Source: an uncultured Desulfuromonadales bacterium
Lineage (GTDB): Bacteria; Desulfobacterota; Desulfuromonadia; Desulfuromonadales; Trichloromonadaceae
DNA length: 36,145 nt
Direction: 5' to 3'
NCBI GenBank assembly: GCA_945787285.1
Contig: CALZIC010000021.1
Coordinates: 1-36,145 of the forward strand
The notes under the pieces were generated by a model, which saw nothing but the letters and a program-made list of their open reading frames with translations, was not told the origin of the DNA and did no database searches. Positions within the stretch are counted from its first letter, which is position 1; each line of letters opens with the position of its first letter. The position numbers were made by a program, and so were the translations under genes. This document shows, piece by piece, positions 17,206-28,192 of this stretch.

Positions 17206-18246
17206 CTATTCCGTCTCCATCTCTAAGATCTGGCTTACCAGCCTGGCGGTGTAATCGACGACGGGGATGACCGATGAGTAGTTCATCCGGGTCGGGCCGA
17301 TGACGCCGAGAGTGCCTATGGTTCCACGACTGCTGGAATAATTGGCGGTGATCAGGCTGCAGCCTTCAATTTCGCTGTATTTCGATTCGCTGCCGATGAA
17401 AATCTGTACCCCTTTGGCGTGCTGGGTCTTGTCGAGCAGGTCGACCAGCAGGTTCTTTTGTTCAAAGGTGCGGAACAGACGCTTCATGCGGTCGAGATCG
17501 TTGAATTCGGGCTGATCGAGAATCTTGGAGGCTCCCTCGATGAAAATCTGACCACCCAGCTCTTCCTTAAGGGCTTCATTGGAGAGAAAGAGAGCCCTGT
17601 GCAGCAACATGTCGTAAGTGGCCTTTTCCTTGGCCATTTCCTCCACAATCCGTTTCTTGATCTGCTGAATGCTCAGACCGCAGAGGGTATGGTTGAGGTA
17701 GTTGCTGATCTGCTCGAGTTCCCGCTCGCTGATCGGGCCGTCGCTTTCGATGATCTTGTTCTGAACCAGGCCGGACTGGGATACGAAGATGACGAGGATT
17801 TTGCCCTGCGAGAGCTTGAGAAATTCGATGTGGCGAAAGACCGTGGAGATCAAGCGGGGAGCCATGACCACGCCGGTATAGCTCGATATGGTCGAGAGGG
17901 CCTTGCCGGCTTCGCGCAGACGCTCTTCAACGCGCAGCCCGTCGATCCGGTAATTCTGCTCGATGCGCTGTTTCTGCTCGTCGGTAAGCTGTCCGACCTG
18001 CATCAGCGAATCGATGTAAAAACGGTAGCCCTTTTCGGTCGGGATCCTCCCCGCAGAGGTATGGGGGGAAGAGAGGTATCCCATCTCCTCCAGATCGGCC
18101 ATGACGTTGCGGACCGTGGCCGGTGAAACGCCGATATTCTTGTGTCGACTGATGGCCCGGGAGCCGATCGGTTCGGCCGTTCCGATGAAGTCCTCGATAA
18201 TCGCCTCGAGAATCAGCAGGCTGCGTTGGTTAAGTTCCTCGGCCAT
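17206..18246 (-). CDS. hrcA: Heat-inducible transcription repressor HrcA
   Basis: Represses class I heat-shock genes by binding CIRCE; its folding depends on GroE in studied bacteria, which gives feedback. 346 residues. N-terminal winged helix: [20 protein letters not shown], then [20 protein letters not shown] and [18 protein letters not shown]. The C-terminal part has VVMAPRL and [20 protein letters not shown]. First gene of its operon, with a perfect CIRCE 58 bases upstream, so it is autoregulated. ATG 18246 has a poor ribosome site, which would keep repressor levels low. Confidence 0.97.
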
Positions 18247-20031: not shown

Positions 20032-21798
20032 TCAGCTGAAGAACAGGTACGACATGACGGCGATGAAGAGCACCGCCAGCAGCACGCCGATTCCGATCGG
20101 GTAGGCGCCGGCCCGGCTGCGCGCTTCGATCAGCGCTTCCTTTTCGGCCAGCGCGGCGCTGTCGCCGCTGGCCCCGCCCTGCAGGCGCAGGGCGTACTTC
20201 TGCAGGTTGGCTCCCGGTTCATCGAAAAACCGCGAAACAAGCCGGGGAATGCGCTGGATAAAGATCTGGTCGCACCAGCTGTTGATGCTGTTGAACACCC
20301 GGTCGGTCACAGCGTAGAACAGTTTTCCGCCTTTGCGGTAGCTCCAGTCGGAGTCGATGGAGATCGTTTCGGTGCGCTTGAGCATCGGCAGCAGCAAAAA
20401 GAAGGCGAGGGCCGAGAACATCAGCAGCTGAAACTGGTTCAGCGTGTGTTCAAGGGTATAGGCCTGGAACAGTACCTCGAAGGGAAGGATGTCGTAAAGC
20501 GGCCCGGGGTAGAAGCCGAGGAACACGCAGATAAAGGCGAGCAGGGCCATGGCGGCGAGCATGTGCTTGGGCGGCTCGCCGGGGCGCAAGCCTTGGTCCT
20601 TGGCGAAAAAGACGAAGTAGGGGAACTTGATCCCGGCGTGCAGGAAGACCCCCGCAGAGGCGATCTCCAGCACCAGCCAGACCCAGTAGAGTCCCTCGTG
20701 AACACCGGCTTCGATAATCATCGGCTTGCTGGTGTACCCGGAGAGCCCGGGAAATGACGAGATGGCCAGGGCGCCGATGGTGCCGAAAATCATCGTCAGC
20801 GGCATGGTCTTGTAGAGGCCGCCGAGGTCGGTGCACTTGCTTTTTCCGGTCATGTAGAGGACCGATCCGGCGCTCATCCAAAGTAGGGCCTTGTAGATGA
20901 TGTGGCAGAAGGCATGGGCCACCACGCCGCTGATCGCCATAGCGGTGCCGATGCCGATGCCGCAGATCATAAAGCCGACCTGGTTGATAATCGAGTAGGC
21001 CAGGATCCGCCGCATGTCGTTCTCTAAAATGGCGTAGATAATGCCGTAGATGGCCATGAAGCAGCCGACCACCATCAGGATCTCCCAGCCGGCGAAGCCG
21101 CGGATGAGGGTATAGACCGCCGTCTTGGTGGTATAGGCGGTCATGATGACCCCGCCGGTGACCGTCGCCTCGGGGTAGGCGTCGGAGAGCCAGGCCGAAA
21201 AGGGCGGCGCCGCGGCGTTGACCAAAAAGCCGAGCAGGATCAGGTAGGTCGGCAGACTGCGCAGGTCGAAGCCGTCGAAGGCGACCGAACCGGTGGAATG
21301 GACCTGCAGCAGGATTCCGGCGAGCAGGCAGAGGCCGCCGAAGATATGCACCATCACGTAGCGGAAGGCGGCCCTTCCCGAGCGTTCGGTGTTGCGCGCC
21401 AGCACCAGAAAGGTCGAGGTCACCGCCATTACTTCCCAGAACAGGTAGAGGGAGATCAGGTCTCCGGCGAATACCGCGCCAAGACTGGCACCGATATAGG
21501 CCAGCGCCGCCGCGTGTTCATGGCGGGTTTTGAGGTGCATGGCGAACAGAAAACAGGCAAAGGCGTTGATGGTGAAGACATAGCCAAAAGCCTTGCTCAG
21601 CTTGTCGACCCGCAGCAGGGCGAGATCGAAGCCGAACAGCCGGTAGTTCCAGGCGGTTCCGGGCTCAAGGTTGACGATGAGCAGGAAGGCGGCGGCGGGA
21701 ACCAGCAGGATCAGGGCACGGCGTCCGGAAAGGGGCAACAGCCACAGCAAGGCGGCCCCAAGGATGAACAGCAACGCTGGATGAAGGATTTCAATCAT
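20032..21798 (-). CDS. MrpD/NuoL-N-like proton-translocating antiporter subunit (third copy)
   Basis: 588 residues, about 14 core transmembrane helices plus an extra C-terminal helix (YPIGIGVLLAVLFIAVMSYL). Complex I antiporter-family features: the Glu helix (LYLFWEVMAVTSTFL), the first channel Lys (TAYTTKTAVYTLIRG) and the second His/Lys helix (HAFCHIIYKALLWMSAGS), so the channel residues are all present. The soluble region at ~470-560 (SDWSYRKGGKLFYAVTDRVF) links to the last helix and recalls the lateral-helix extensions of MbhI/NuoL, though I cannot prove homology. GGAGG precedes ATG 21798. Its start overlaps the 88-residue gene by eight bases. Confidence 0.9.
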   Translation of the reverse strand: MIEILHPALLFILGAALLWLLPLSGRRALILLVPAAAFLLIVNLEPGTAWNYRLFGFDLALLRVDKLSKAFGYVFTINAFACFLFAMHLKTRHEHAAALAYIGASLGAVFAGDLISLYLFWEVMAVTSTFLVLARNTERSGRAAFRYVMVHIFGGLCLLAGILLQVHSTGSVAFDGFDLRSLPTYLILLGFLVNAAAPPFSAWLSDAYPEATVTGGVIMTAYTTKTAVYTLIRGFAGWEILMVVGCFMAIYGIIYAILENDMRRILAYSIINQVGFMICGIGIGTAMAISGVVAHAFCHIIYKALLWMSAGSVLYMTGKSKCTDLGGLYKTMPLTMIFGTIGALAISSFPGLSGYTSKPMIIEAGVHEGLYWVWLVLEIASAGVFLHAGIKFPYFVFFAKDQGLRPGEPPKHMLAAMALLAFICVFLGFYPGPLYDILPFEVLFQAYTLEHTLNQFQLLMFSALAFFLLLPMLKRTETISIDSDWSYRKGGKLFYAVTDRVFNSINSWCDQIFIQRIPRLVSRFFDEPGANLQKYALRLQGGASGDSAALAEKEALIEARSRAGAYPIGIGVLLAVLFIAVMSYLFFS

Positions 21799-22073: not shown

Positions 22074-23540
22074 TTACAGGAAAAGGGCCAGGCGAACCAG
22101 CCGCAGCAGCACGTCCGGGAAAAAGAACAGGGTCAGCGATCCCAGGGCGGTGACCGACAAAGGGACCAGGCAGAGCAGCGGCGCCTCTTGGATTCCCTCC
22201 CCTTCGTCCTCCTTGGCGGTGGCGAAGAAGCCCCGGTACACGATCGGCAAAAAATAGGCGGCGTTGAGCAGGGAACTGATCAGCAGCACCAGTACCAACA
22301 CCAGCTGGTCGGCCTGCAGGGCGCCGATCAGCAGGTTCCATTTGCTCAGAAAGCCTCCCAGCGGCGGCATACCGATAATGCTCAGCGAGCCGAGGAAGAA
22401 GGCGGTGTAGGTGATCGGCATGCGCCGGCCGAGGCCGTCCATCTGGCTTATGTATTTTTTTTGGCTGGCCACGTAGATCGCCCCGGCGCAGAAGAACAGG
22501 GTGATCTTGCCGAAAGCGTGCATGGCGATGTGCAGCAGCCCCCCGGTCATGCCGGCGGCCGAGAGCATGCCGGCCCCCAGCACCATGTAGGAGAGCTGGC
22601 CGATGGTCGAATAGGCCAGGCGGCGCTTGAGGTTGTCCTGGGTCAGGGCGATCAGCGAGGCGGCCAGGATGGTGATCGAGACGAAGTAGGTCAGCGCCAC
22701 CCCGAGGTCGAGGCTGTGCAACAGGTCGCTGCCGAAGATATCGAAGATAACCCGCAGAATCGAGAACACTCCGACCTTGACCACCGCCACGCCATGTAGA
22801 AAGGAGCTCACCGGCGTCGGGGCGACCATGGCGGCCGGCAGCCAGCCGTGAAACGGCATGATACCGGCCTTGGCAAAGCCGAGCACGAACAGCACCAGCA
22901 GCAGGCTCAGGGTGGCCGGCGAAGCGGTTCCGGCGAGGATGCCGCCGTGGGTGAAGTCGAGGGTTCCGGCGATCTGGTAGGTGATCAGCATGGCGGGCAG
23001 GACCAGTCCGATCGAGGTGCCGAGGATATAGGTCAGGTACTTGCGCCCGGAATAGCGCGCTTCGGCGTTCTGCTCGTGGGTCACCAGCGGATAGGTGGAG
23101 AGCGAGAGTACTTCGTAAAAGAGGTAGAGCGTGAGCAGGTTGGCGGAGAAGGCCACACCGATGGTCGCCGAGATCGCCGCGGCAAACGAGGCGAAGTAGC
23201 GGGTCTGGTCATGCTCGTTCAAGGCGCGCATGTAGCCGATCGAGTAGATCGAGGTGAAAATCCACAAAAAGGAGGCCACCAGGGCGAAGAACATCCCCAT
23301 GGCATCGACCTTCAGCTGAATGGGCACCCCGGGGATCACCTCGGCGAGGGTGAAGACGAACCCGCCCCCGGACAGGACAGCCGGAAGCATCGAAGCGATG
23401 ATGCAGAACTTGCCGATGGCGATAAGCACGGTCCAGCTCTCGCGCAGGTTGGGCTTGCGCCCGCTGAGCATGATGGGAACCGTTCCTAACAGGGAAATGC
23501 AAACCGCCGCCAAGGGCCATATTGAATCTGGATACGCCAT
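22074..23540 (-). CDS. MrpD-like proton-translocating antiporter subunit (second copy)
   Basis: 488 residues from ATG 23540 (MAYPDSIWPLAAV); AAGAGAA precedes it. A possible start at 23600 would add 20 hydrophilic residues inside the preceding gene and lacks support. About 14 transmembrane helices. Antiporter-family residues: Glu in LTLYLFYEVLSLSTYPLV, Lys in HGVAVVKVGVFSILR, and His/Lys in HIAMHAFGKITLFFCAGA. It keeps all proton-path residues. Second of three homologous subunits in this operon. Confidence 0.92.
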   Translation of the reverse strand: MAYPDSIWPLAAVCISLLGTVPIMLSGRKPNLRESWTVLIAIGKFCIIASMLPAVLSGGGFVFTLAEVIPGVPIQLKVDAMGMFFALVASFLWIFTSIYSIGYMRALNEHDQTRYFASFAAAISATIGVAFSANLLTLYLFYEVLSLSTYPLVTHEQNAEARYSGRKYLTYILGTSIGLVLPAMLITYQIAGTLDFTHGGILAGTASPATLSLLLVLFVLGFAKAGIMPFHGWLPAAMVAPTPVSSFLHGVAVVKVGVFSILRVIFDIFGSDLLHSLDLGVALTYFVSITILAASLIALTQDNLKRRLAYSTIGQLSYMVLGAGMLSAAGMTGGLLHIAMHAFGKITLFFCAGAIYVASQKKYISQMDGLGRRMPITYTAFFLGSLSIIGMPPLGGFLSKWNLLIGALQADQLVLVLVLLISSLLNAAYFLPIVYRGFFATAKEDEGEGIQEAPLLCLVPLSVTALGSLTLFFFPDVLLRLVRLALFL

Positions 23541-23583
23541 TGAATTCTCTTTAACCGATTCGATAGGGGTCGTAAGAAAAAAA

Positions 23584-25068
23584 CTAAAGGATTGCCGCAA
23601 CTGCCGGACGGATCACCTTTTCAACGATCTGTCCCGAGCCCAAACCGATCACGATCAGGGCGACAGCCGACAGAACCAGCGGGTTGAGCATGAAAACCGG
23701 CGCTTCATTGATCTTAAGCTCGTCGTGGCCATGGGAACCCTCGCTGCGGAAGTAGGCGATCTCGATCAGACGGAAGAATAGAACCGCATTGACCAGGCTG
23801 CTGAAGAGCAGGGCGGCCACGTAGGACCACTCTCCGGCCTCAACGCCGCCGAGAATCAGGTACCACTTGCTGAAAAAACCGCAGGTCGGCGGGATGCCGA
23901 TCATCGAAAAGGCCCCCAGGGTAAAGGCCGCCATGGTGATCGGCATCTTCCGGTACAGCCCCTTGAGATTGTCGAAGCTGAGCGAGCCGGTCCGGTAGAC
24001 AATGGCCGATGCCGCCAGAAAAAGGCAGAGGGTCATGACCGCATCGTTGAGGATATGCAGAATCGAGCCGGTCAGCCCCTGGGTATTGCCGAGCCAGACG
24101 CCGCCGACCATGTAGCCGACCTCGGCGACGATGATGTAGGTCAGCATCCGCTTGAGGTCTCGCTGGGCCAGCGCCAGCGCCGAGGCACAGACGATTGCCA
24201 AGGATGCGACCCACACCAGAATCGGCTGAATCCCCTGGTGGAGGCCGATAATCCAGTCCATCGAAACGACCGAGTACATGACCCGGATCATCAGATAGAC
24301 CGTCACCTTGGTCATCAGCGGAGCGATCAGGGTGCCGGCCCCGGTCGGTGCGTGGCTGTAGGCGTTGGGCAGCCAGCCGTGCAGCGGGAAGAGGGCCATC
24401 TTGATCCACAGCCCGACGCTGAGAAAGGCGAAGGCCGTGGCGATGGCCACCGTTCCGTTGATTGTCGGAATCAGCGAGGCGATATCGGCCATGTTCAGCG
24501 ACCCGGTGAGGATATACAGGTAGCCGACTCCCAGCAGGTAGAAACAGGCGCCGATCGAGCCCATGATGATGTAGTTGAAGCTCGACAGCGGGGCGCGGCC
24601 CGGGCCCATGGCGATCAGGCCGTAGGTGGTGATGGAGGTGATTTCCAGCAGCACGTAGAGGTTGAAGGCGTCGCCGGTGATGACGATGCCGAGCAACCCG
24701 GCGATCAGGATCAAGTAGAGGGTGAAAAAGAGGTGTTCCTGGCCGGGAAGTTCCCTCTCGACGCTCTTGAGGGCGGAAAGGGTCGCCACCAGGGCCACGG
24801 CCGAAACCAGCACCAGCATCAGGGCGGCCAGGGGGTCGACCACCAGCTCGATGCCGAAAGGCGGCGTCCAGTTGCCCACCGTGTAGCGGATGGTCCCCTC
24901 GGCCAGTACCCGGACCAGCACCAGCACCGAGGCCAGGGTGGAAAAGACCAGGGCGCCGAGGCACAAGGGGGCAACCCAGGTACGGGAGATTCTGCCGAGC
25001 AGGTTGACGAACAGGGCGGTCAGCAGGGGCGCCGCGAGCACGTAGATATGAAGGTTCGACTCCATCAT
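23584..25068 (-). CDS. MrpD-like antiporter subunit (first copy), lacking the second channel Lys
   Basis: 494 residues, about 14 transmembrane helices. The Glu helix (LYVLLEITSITTYGLI) and first channel Lys (IAPLMTKVTVYLMIR) are present. In the helix that usually reads H-x3-H-A-x2-K, this protein has HILNDAVMTLCLFLAA, so His becomes Asp and Lys becomes Thr. Its proton path therefore differs from the two other copies. Start ATG 25068 overlaps the mrpC stop in an ATGA arrangement, and GGAG lies eight bases upstream. In Mbh terms it takes the mbhH position, directly after the mrpC-like gene. Confidence 0.92.
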   Translation of the reverse strand: MMESNLHIYVLAAPLLTALFVNLLGRISRTWVAPLCLGALVFSTLASVLVLVRVLAEGTIRYTVGNWTPPFGIELVVDPLAALMLVLVSAVALVATLSALKSVERELPGQEHLFFTLYLILIAGLLGIVITGDAFNLYVLLEITSITTYGLIAMGPGRAPLSSFNYIIMGSIGACFYLLGVGYLYILTGSLNMADIASLIPTINGTVAIATAFAFLSVGLWIKMALFPLHGWLPNAYSHAPTGAGTLIAPLMTKVTVYLMIRVMYSVVSMDWIIGLHQGIQPILVWVASLAIVCASALALAQRDLKRMLTYIIVAEVGYMVGGVWLGNTQGLTGSILHILNDAVMTLCLFLAASAIVYRTGSLSFDNLKGLYRKMPITMAAFTLGAFSMIGIPPTCGFFSKWYLILGGVEAGEWSYVAALLFSSLVNAVLFFRLIEIAYFRSEGSHGHDELKINEAPVFMLNPLVLSAVALIVIGLGSGQIVEKVIRPAVAAIL

Positions 25069-25397
25069 TTGCTGATCTTCTCCAGTATTTCATCCTCTTC
25101 GAGGGTTCCGTACTCGCGGTGGATGCGCTGCAGGATGGCCAGGGCCACACCGGTGATGCTGACCGAGACGACGATGGCCGTCAGCATCAGAACGTGGGGG
25201 AGGGGGTTGACCACTCCGGAGGGGTCGACCCCGTGCTTGAGCACCTCGTATTTATCGAGAATCGGGATGCCGGCCCCCCGCTTTACGCCGGTGGAGACGA
25301 AAAAGAGGATAATGGCCGTTTGGAAGATGTTCATGCCGAGCAGCTTCTTGACCAGGTTGCGCTTGCCGATCATGGCGTAGAAGGCCAAGCAGTCCAT
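25065..25397 (-). CDS. mrpC: MrpC/NuoK-like antiporter subunit, N-terminus probably shortened
   Basis: 110 residues from ATG 25397. NuoK-like core: FYAMIGKRNLVKKLLGMNIF, QTAIILFFVSTGVKRG, then HVLMLTAIVVSVSITGVALA with the typical LTAIVVS motif. MrpC/NuoK proteins have three helices; here the first helix is cut to about MDCLAFYAMIG. An alternative ATG at 25401, placed immediately after the mrpB stop, opens another frame (MDGLLGLL) that does not continue into the MrpC sequence. I infer a possible small deletion with frameshift near 25380, or a sequence error. Overlaps the next gene by four bases. Confidence 0.8.
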   Translation of the reverse strand: MDCLAFYAMIGKRNLVKKLLGMNIFQTAIILFFVSTGVKRGAGIPILDKYEVLKHGVDPSGVVNPLPHVLMLTAIVVSVSITGVALAILQRIHREYGTLEEDEILEKISK

Positions 25398-25402
25398 CCA
25401 TA

Positions 25403-25882
25403 TCAGAGTCCCTCGTCCAGTTGGCCGCCAGAGGAAATGTCCCAGTAAAGTGAGACCATGATGCTCATGACGGTCAGTCCGACGCCGACCTCCACGAGAA
25501 AAATCCCGAAAGAGCGCCATTCGACCGGTCCCATGGGGATGAGGACATCCAGGGCGCTGTAGTCGAGGAACAGCCCGCCGACAATGGCGCAGAGGGCGGC
25601 GACGCCGGTAAAGATCAATACGCCGAGATTGCCCATAATGGCGTTAGCCTTTTGCGACATGCGGTTCAGCGATGTTTTCAGATCGTAGGCCAGGGCCAGC
25701 AATACGAAGGAGGCTCCGAGCACGACCCCGCCCTGGAATCCGCCGCCGGGGCTGTAGTGGCCGTGGACGATGACATACAGGCCGAAGAGCTGGATAAAGG
25801 GGACCAGGATCCGGACCGAGGTCTGGATGATGAGGCTTTCGCCCAGGGGGCGCAGCTGGGCCCTTTCCTGCAGACGCTTCAT
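25403..25882 (-). CDS. mrpB: MrpB-like antiporter subunit
   Basis: 159 residues, four hydrophobic helices. The MrpB signature is HGHYSPGGGFQGGVVLGAS; the other helices are IQTSVRILVPFIQLFGLYVI, MGNLGVLIFTGVAALCAIVG and FGIFLVEVGVGLTVMSIMVS. Equivalent to MbhF. ATG 25882 overlaps the upstream gene's stop (ATGA). An upstream in-frame start at 25927 lies inside the preceding gene and is less likely. Confidence 0.92.
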   Translation of the reverse strand: MKRLQERAQLRPLGESLIIQTSVRILVPFIQLFGLYVIVHGHYSPGGGFQGGVVLGASFVLLALAYDLKTSLNRMSQKANAIMGNLGVLIFTGVAALCAIVGGLFLDYSALDVLIPMGPVEWRSFGIFLVEVGVGLTVMSIMVSLYWDISSGGQLDEGL

Positions 25883-26151
25883 GATTTGGGCCTCCTCAGA
25901 ACAGCCACGACCGCCATGCCGGCGCAAAAGATGACCACCGTCTCGAACATGGTATCGTATCCCCGGTAATCACCGAGAACCGCCGTGACGATGTTGGGAA
26001 CGTGGGTCTGCTCGATCGCTTTTTCAATGTAGACCGGCGAGAGGTGGGTACTCGCCGGCGACTGGGGGTCTCCCCAGGCGGGAAAGTCTTTGGTCCCGTA
26101 AAGCAGGATCGTTCCGGTGACCAGGGTTGCCAGCAGGGCCAGGGCTCGCAT
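25879..26151 (-). CDS. MbhE-like subunit (MrpA C-terminal piece)
   Basis: 90 residues: a first helix (ALALLATLVTGTILLYG), a periplasmic stretch with HLSPVYIEKAIEQTHVPNIV and TAVLGDYRGYDTMFET, and a second helix (VVIFCAGMAVVAVL). The NIVTAVLGDYRGYDTMFE motif is the one shared by the C-terminal part of MrpA and the separate MbhE subunit. Here it is a stand-alone gene. It overlaps both neighbours by one to four bases. Confidence 0.88.
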   Translation of the reverse strand: MRALALLATLVTGTILLYGTKDFPAWGDPQSPASTHLSPVYIEKAIEQTHVPNIVTAVLGDYRGYDTMFETVVIFCAGMAVVAVLRRPKS

Positions 26152-26344
26152 CAGTCTTTACTCCTCCTGGAGGTTCGCAGTATCGCGCCGATAAAGAGTA
26201 CCGTGCTGATCCCCGCCCCGACCGTCGCTTCGGTGAAGGCCACGTCGACCGCCCCCATTTCGGCCCAGAGCAGGCACATGTGATGGTTGCCAGGGCGCAG
26301 ATCACCACCAGGACCAGAATCAGAAGGTCGAGTTGCCAGATCAT
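26151..26344 (-). pseudogene. MbhD-like (DUF4040-type) subunit, internally deleted and frameshifted
   Basis: The 194-base gene is not a multiple of three. From ATG 26344, with AAGGGA nine bases upstream, the first frame gives MIWQLDLLILVLVVICALATI and then turns to nonsense. A second frame, from about 26282, gives MCLLWAEMGAVDVAFTEATV followed by GAGISTVLFIGAILRTSRRS and a stop that overlaps the next ATG. The two parts are the start and end of an MbhD/MrpA-C-type subunit, in which about 17-18 residues of helix normally lie between them. Neighbouring overlaps are intact at both ends, so the lesion is purely internal. It may be a true mutation or an assembly error. Confidence 0.8.
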
Positions 26345-26345
26345 G

Positions 26346-26663
26346 TTATTTTTTCCCTTTGGTCCAGGGTTCCACACCGACGATCAGGGCCGCTTCGGTG
26401 ATGGCGTGGGTCGCCGTGGGACTGGCGACGAAGACGAAGACCGCGATGGCCAGAATCTTCAGACTGACCAGCACGGCGGCGGCGCTGAAATCTCCGAGGT
26501 TGTAAGCAGCCACTCCGGTGATCACCAGAACGGCGGCCAGAGAGTCACATTTTCCGGCAGCATGAAGCCGGGTGAAAAAATCGGGAAAACGCAGGAGGCC
26601 GATCGTCCCTATGGCAAAGAAAAAGAGACCGGCAACGATCAATACCATGGCCAGGATAGTCAT
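26346..26663 (-). CDS. mrpG: MrpG-like antiporter subunit
   Basis: 105 residues, three helices. MrpG/MbhC signature GTIGLLRFPDFFTRLHAAGK at residues ~19-38, followed by AVLVSLKILAIAVFVFVASP and ATHAITEAAL. Cytoplasmic-membrane subunit of a multisubunit Na+/H+ antiporter. Its stop is one base from the next ATG. Confidence 0.94.
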   Translation of the reverse strand: MTILAMVLIVAGLFFFAIGTIGLLRFPDFFTRLHAAGKCDSLAAVLVITGVAAYNLGDFSAAAVLVSLKILAIAVFVFVASPTATHAITEAALIVGVEPWTKGKK

Positions 26664-26687: not shown

Positions 26688-26972
26688 TTATTCATGTTCC
26701 AGATGTATGCTCTTGCGCCGCAGAAAGAACTTGGTCGCCCCCAAGGTGGCGATGAAGTTCAGCAGTGCATAGGCGATGGCAATATCGACAAACATTCCGA
26801 CGTTGTCGTAAAGAACGCCGATGATCAGCATCAGCACCGTGGTTTTGGTTCCGATGACGCTGCCGCCGAGAATACGGTCAAGCACGGTCGGTCCGGCAAT
26901 CACCCGGATCAGCGAAAGGCTCATCAGCAGAACCAGGGCGATACCTGCTGCCAGGAAAAACTGGTGAATCAT
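26688..26972 (-). CDS. mrpF: MrpF-like antiporter subunit
   Basis: 94 residues, three helices. The MrpF/MbhB signature is RVIAGPTVLDRILGGSVIGT, then NVGMFVDIAIAYALLNFIAT. The start overlaps the mrpE stop by four bases (ATGA). Confidence 0.94.
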   Translation of the reverse strand: MIHQFFLAAGIALVLLMSLSLIRVIAGPTVLDRILGGSVIGTKTTVLMLIIGVLYDNVGMFVDIAIAYALLNFIATLGATKFFLRRKSIHLEHE

Positions 26973-27454
26973 GATTTGTCCTCCATCGCCGCCGCCACAC
27001 GTCTTTCCATTTCGCCGGGGAGGGATTCGGCAGCGCTTCGGGTCAGGGCATAGACGGTGAATTCATCATCATCGATGCTGACGGTGATCGTTCCGGGAGT
27101 CAGGGTGATCGATTGGGCGAGGGTCACCTTGGATATCGGTTTTTTCAGAGTGGTGGTGAACCGGACCAGCTGGGGGTCGATCATCTCTTTCATGCGGGGG
27201 TGCAGAACGATGTAGGTCACCTGCAGGTTGGCGACAAGGATTTCCCAGAACAACCAGGGGAGGTAGAGCAAAAAGCCGACCAGCCGGCCGAGCCAGGCGC
27301 CACCAGGAGAGGCGGAAAAGAGGAGGTCGTGGCTGAAATAAGCCACCAGCAGGCAGCAAACCACCCCCAGGGAGAGGTGGAACGCATCGAACATTCCGGA
27401 GAGCAGCACCCAGAAGGTCAGCATCACCAGGAAGGAGACAATCTTGGATATCAT
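26969..27454 (-). CDS. mrpE: MrpE-like antiporter subunit
   Basis: 161 residues from ATG 27454, with GAGGAA five bases before it. Two to three N-terminal helices (IVSFLVMLTFWVLLSG, LSLGVVCCLLVAYFSHDLLF, LVGFLLYLPWLFWEILVANL), then the soluble MrpE domain with SITLTPGTITVSIDDDEFTV, the family hallmark. An in-frame start at 27571 would add 39 non-homologous residues. First gene of the antiporter operon. Together the operon follows mbhA-H order (E, F, G, D-like, E-like, B, C, D) with two extra MrpD-like genes. Confidence 0.93.
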   Translation of the reverse strand: MISKIVSFLVMLTFWVLLSGMFDAFHLSLGVVCCLLVAYFSHDLLFSASPGGAWLGRLVGFLLYLPWLFWEILVANLQVTYIVLHPRMKEMIDPQLVRFTTTLKKPISKVTLAQSITLTPGTITVSIDDDEFTVYALTRSAAESLPGEMERRVAAAMEDKS

Positions 27455-28192
27455 CGCGATTCCTCGGGAAAGTCTATATCTGTGAAGGTACGTGTTGTCA
27501 CTCGGGTTCGGTACCGGGGGCCGGGACCCTGACGGTCGCCGGTCCGGTTTCAGACAGTCGTTAATGAGCAAAAAAAGTGCCGATGCAGAGCCTTTAAAAA
27601 CCGATATAATAAAACATCACTTTTTTATCATGTGGGTTAGGCTTGGTCAAGGAAATCCGAATGAATTTTGTGTGCCTCTGGATCGCAAGGGCATAAAATA
27701 AAGGGGTTATTTTAATCTGAATTTTTTCAAAATTATAAAACACAGTTTTACAAAAAAGGGAACGGTGTTTTTTGCTCTTTTAATCATTTTCGTTTTCAAG
27801 TATTTTGTACCCTGTTGATGTGACCCCGGGGCGACGCGAGTTGCATCGATGTTGGGCAGCACTGCCTCTGTGGATGCAAAAGTGCGAGTATGAACCGGCA
27901 GTTGCGGTAACCACCGCCCCCATAGGGAATGCGTTAATGAGGTTTTCGACTGTCGCTTCGATAAAAACGGGGAAAAGTCCGGCCTGCCGGAAAACACTTC
28001 GAACGGAAAGGCGGCGCGCACTATCCAGGTGCGCAGAGTCCTGAAAACTTGATGCCCTGAGCAGATGTTTATATCGGTCCCGCCTGCCTGCATAGATGGG
28101 TTGTCCCCCTGACGGGTACTTTATAATTGTTCCCCTCTGTATCCTTCCAGAGCATAGAAAGTCGTTCTGTATTTTATTTAAGGGAGTCAGTG
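27455..28192. other. 738-base intergenic region with many small hairpins, no recognised gene
   Basis: Divergent gap between mrpE (-) and the amidase (+). The left half (27560-27830) is AT-rich and has three short palindromes in a row: 27695-27713, 27720-27734 and 27736-27750. The right half (27830-28060) is richer in GC and has nested or single stems: TTGCATC/GATGCAA (27841-27847 with 27873-27879) enclosing GGCA/TGCC (27855-27858 with 27863-27866); GCGGT/ACCGC (27904-27917); TCCGG/CCGGA (27988-28001); and GCGCAC/GTGCGC (28016-28034). I do not match it to a known riboswitch, 6S RNA or tmRNA. A 45-codon ORF at 27564-27701 has no ribosome site. Confidence 0.6.
28101..28127 (+). promoter_or_regulatory. 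Possible promoter of the amidase gene
   Basis: A perfect TATAAT at 28122-28127 lies 65 bases before the start codon. The best -35 is TTGTCC (28101-28106) with a short 15-base spacer, so the assignment rests mainly on the -10 box. Confidence 0.4.

Follow-up and report, generated by a model that had tools for sequence, protein, structure and literature searches.

The window, a 36,145-nt stretch of DNA from the draft genome of an uncultured Desulfuromonadales bacterium, contains an Mrp-type antiporter operon in which one gene, mbhD, is interrupted in its middle. The locus raises the question of whether a new mutation has broken mbhD, whether the antiporter works with a shortened subunit, or whether the assembled sequence is wrong at this point. 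A sequence-only reading of the window had left these three options side by side. We compared the gene with its orthologs in related genomes, assessed selection on what remains of it and searched the same draft for similar defects.

The mbhD gene and its operon

The operon comprises mrpE, mrpF, mrpG, mbhD, mbhE, mrpB and mrpC, followed by three mrpD-like genes, all on the minus strand:

26969..27571, minus strand: mrpE (PF01899); the true start is probably within the open reading frame
26688..26972, minus strand: mrpF (PF04066)
26346..26663, minus strand: mrpG (PF03334), intact; its TAA lies one base ahead of the mbhD ATG
26151..26344, minus strand: mbhD (DUF4040, PF13244) as assembled, 194 nt, two open pieces in different frames
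26280..26344, minus strand: mbhD 5' piece, MIWQLDLLILVLVVICALATI(T), first transmembrane helix; 62-95% identity to the orthologs of relatives
26279..26280, minus strand: mbhD junction, ATCAC|ATGTGCC, where 52 nt are absent
26151..26279, minus strand: mbhD 3' piece, MCLLWAEMGAVDVAFTEATVGAGISTVLFIGAILRTSRRSKD and stop; PF13244 match, 88-98% identity to the orthologs of relatives
25879..26151, minus strand: mbhE (PF20501), intact; its ATG overlaps the mbhD stop (TGATG)
25403..25927, minus strand: mrpB (MnhB, PF04039)
25065..25520, minus strand: mrpC (Oxidored_q2, PF00420), open reading frame as listed; the true start is probably further in
23584..25068, minus strand: mrpD, first copy (PF00361)
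22074..23600, minus strand: mrpD, second copy (PF00361, PF00662)
20032..21798, minus strand: mrpD-like, third copy (PF00361; NF009310, Na+/H+ antiporter subunit D, 691.7 bits)

The assignment of the broken gene to an MbhD-like antiporter subunit, made in the sequence-only reading, was correct. MbhD proteins (DUF4040, PF13244) occur in group-3 Mrp antiporters and in the membrane-bound hydrogenase (PDB 6CFW and 6U8Y, chain D in each), and both pieces in the window match a profile of MbhD orthologs. The gene lies between mrpG and mbhE, as expected of mbhD, and mrpG and mbhD are adjacent in relatives too; the order E-F-G-MbhD-MbhE-B-C-D is that of other systems with MbhD. What sets the window apart from every other member examined is the loss of 52 nt with a change of frame. 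An intact, functional MbhD would match the PF13244 profile over its length and be open in one frame over about 81 codons, whereas here the 194 nt are divided between two frames. The first reads MIWQLDLLILVLVVICALATIT and then continues, out of frame, into mbhE, where it meets a stop at 26024; the second, MCLLWAEMGAVDVAFTEATVGAGISTVLFIGAILRTSRRSKD*, starts with an in-frame ATG. The 3' piece matches positions 30-67 of the 67 in PF13244 (42.3-44.8 bits, with a cut-off of 27.2), the 5' piece is matched by the ortholog profile only (positions 1-23), and against that profile the gene falls into two pieces, at positions 1-23 and 39-81. No second intact copy of mbhD was found in the genome, and the DNA region is single. 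The only other PF13244 match, on another contig (C67), was rejected as a second MbhD, being weak and below the cut-off; it probably belongs to a NuoJ-like protein.

The surroundings of the gene look sound. As had been noted from the sequence, the rest of the ten-gene operon is open: the nine other genes match their families, and mrpG, mbhE and mrpB align without gaps to those of six relatives. The accompanying claim that mbhD overlaps both neighbors holds for mbhE, with which it shares TGATG, and fails for mrpG, which stops one base short of the mbhD ATG. Translation of the 5' piece would continue into mbhE and end at 26024, but mbhE has a strong ribosome site of its own, preceded as it is by AGGAGGAG, which by eye is kept. 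In another genome of the order (2 contigs), mrpB was matched in three pieces (G054:C1:135739-136255), a pattern suggestive of frame errors or of a broken gene.

Size and distribution of the loss

In all 19 relatives examined at the level of single bases, including three of the same family, the start ATG of mbhD lies 117 nt from the ATG of MCLL (MCLLWAEMGAVDVAF); in the window the distance is 65 nt. The internal loss with frameshift in the assembled sequence is thus confirmed, and the earlier estimate of about 17-18 missing residues can be refined to 52 nt, that is 17 codons and one base, absent at 26279/26280. The lost residues, 23-39, include D25, L26, L27, A29, F33, G34, Y36, S37 and F38, all invariant in an alignment of 12 intact sequences. 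Alignment with solved relatives (chain D of both 6U8Y and 6CFW) suggests that these residues make up most of the second MbhD helix.

A profile built from the same number of intact mbhD sequences (12) was searched against 136 genomes of the order and recovered 67 orthologs of about 81 codons, 63 of them matched at profile positions 1-81 and four at 1-79 or 1-80. In addition, 80 loci in a sweep of the genome_contigs collection match MbhD over all or nearly all of its length. No shortened mbhD was found among the relatives examined in the order or in the sweep, and the two-piece gene is confined to the genome of the window. The comparison with related Desulfuromonadales that the sequence-only reading had proposed therefore shows full-length relatives and a deletion that none of them shares, and a lineage-specific short MbhD was rejected on this ground. 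The junction offers no direct repeat that would favor deletion by slippage, with at most about one base common to both sides, and a deletion between direct repeats was likewise rejected.

Selection on the remaining codons

The 63 codons that remain differ from those of six relatives by 22-28 synonymous and 5-9 non-synonymous changes (dS 0.7-1.1, dN 0.04-0.07), and dN is lower than in the intact neighbors mrpG, mbhE and mrpB. These values indicate that mbhD is still under full selection or was so until very recently. Low dN together with high synonymous change in the flanks implies that the break is either very recent or not real. An old pseudogene, in which relaxed selection on the remaining pieces would be expected, was rejected: both pieces show strong selection and no relaxation.

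Losses and gaps elsewhere in the draft

The draft genome (G000; 4.02 Mb, 517 contigs, 91.7% complete, 5.8% contaminated) was searched for comparable defects by comparing 1.35 Mb of it in both directions with a 1.1-Mb sample of a cleaner relative (G002), giving about 256 gene comparisons. Gene calls were made in this analysis and reading frames were filtered by codon usage; a scan of unfiltered open reading frames had reported breaks that were artifacts of shadow frames, and these were dropped. Four further losses were found in the draft. In recG a net 29 nt are lost and the frame changes (L221, G000:C40, 13950-13970); resB lacks a net 58 nt (L242, G000:C61, 12595-12610) and cysD 1 nt (L259, G000:C78, 11165-11175), again with a change of frame in each, and the family was confirmed for all three. 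At the accD/folC junction 16 nt are missing (L235, G000:C54, ~17820-17840), and with them the accD stop and the folC start codon. The protein is well conserved on both sides of each loss. In the reverse comparison, no comparable loss was found in the G002 sample; one apparent break there (L235 against L197) proved on inspection to be the draft's own 16-nt accD/folC loss. A variable region (L252/L188; net 288 nt, in frame) was left out of the count. A further stretch of the draft (L217, G000:C36, 9375-11435) matches an open reading frame of G002 at 61% identity with a single in-frame stop, which may reflect either one more error or a shadow frame.

The gaps that the draft itself marks are also of the wrong size. 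Eight runs of N, 2-79 long, occur in the draft sample and none in the G002 sample. In asnS (L237, G000:C56, 4328) 21 N stand in place of 78 nt in four relatives, in a sodium-dependent transporter (L220, G000:C39, 13897) 11 N in place of 15 nt in three close relatives, and in an N-acetylmuramoyl-L-alanine amidase (L256, G000:C75, 6460) 79 N in place of 108-129 nt in relatives. A VgrG-like gene (L214, G000:C33, 13400) has 17 N though its flanks overlap by 18 identical bases. Among the runs tested, the error in gap size reaches about 57 nt, and the gaps are mostly too small.

Explanations for the missing bases

We consider it probable, at roughly 0.87, that the 52-nt loss is an assembly join error, by analogy with the other losses and gaps of the draft. 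Assembled pieces of the draft would have been joined by a scaffolder on the basis of estimated gap lengths. In mbhD the estimate for a true gap of 52 nt probably came out at zero or less; the ends were then abutted without N, the 52 bases were dropped and the frame was shifted. The junction in mbhD would then be a scaffold or contig join, as the other defects of the draft suggest. The likeness to known scaffold-join errors in draft genomes lies in the absence of homology at joins where tens of bases are lost, in several unrelated conserved genes, and in runs of N of the wrong length; the difference is that the mbhD join lacks N and can be assigned to this class by analogy only. This absence of N at the junction counts against a join error, and so do the small counts of further events, four in the draft against none in the relative, in a comparison that used a single relative and in which each further loss is supported by one or a few sequences.

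A real deletion of 52 bp, carried by the strain or by some of the population sampled, would give the same consensus; it would have to be very recent and would very probably inactivate mbhD. The contig around the gene looks sound, with nine open operon genes, three of them free of gaps against relatives, and a fresh event would leave the flanks unchanged, as observed. Losses of the same type in recG, resB and accD/folC, among them genes that the cell is expected to need, argue against this explanation, as do the marked gaps mis-sized by similar amounts and the lack of a repeat at the junction. The accD and folC genes are normally essential, which makes a living cell with the draft's sequence implausible. 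Free-living cells should retain recG and cysD, and especially accD and folC, so that a series of real deletions in these genes is unlikely. We therefore regard a genuine recent deletion in mbhD as unlikely. Far less credible still is a deletion that is both real and tolerated, in which the antiporter would work although MbhD is split and lacks most of helix 2, the subunit being made as two peptides or by ribosomal frameshifting. In favor of this reading, conservation persists in both pieces and the 3' piece opens with an in-frame ATG, but the short form is absent from every other genome examined, and neither a slippery sequence nor an upstream ribosome site was seen by eye at the junction. Moreover, a frame-shifted product would still be without residues 23-39 and the nine invariant positions among them. 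The earlier suggestion that the complex may work without this helix thus finds no support, and its alternative that the sequence is wrong here became the best-supported option. The recurrence of losses in other conserved genes, together with the mis-sized gaps, favors an assembly error over biology.

Implications for the antiporter and for the draft

The consequences for the antiporter depend on which explanation holds. The C-terminal part of MrpA, the counterpart of MbhD and MbhE, carries carboxylates that are essential for activity (PMC7419157) and provides the second route for protons where it adjoins the sodium module (PMC8415708). In the case of a real deletion, this correspondence would make inactivation of the subunit very probable, and the antiporter would probably be inactivated along with mbhD, the proton-cation junction being incomplete.

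For the draft as a whole, the losses found suggest that about 1-2% of its genes may be falsely broken. A lone frameshift in a draft genome can be judged by whether losses of similar length occur in other vital genes of that draft and by whether its marked gaps are correctly sized. Here both of these checks point to assembly, and claims about the biology of the antiporter should not rest on the mbhD of this draft as it stands. The organism itself most likely has a normal mbhD of 81 codons.
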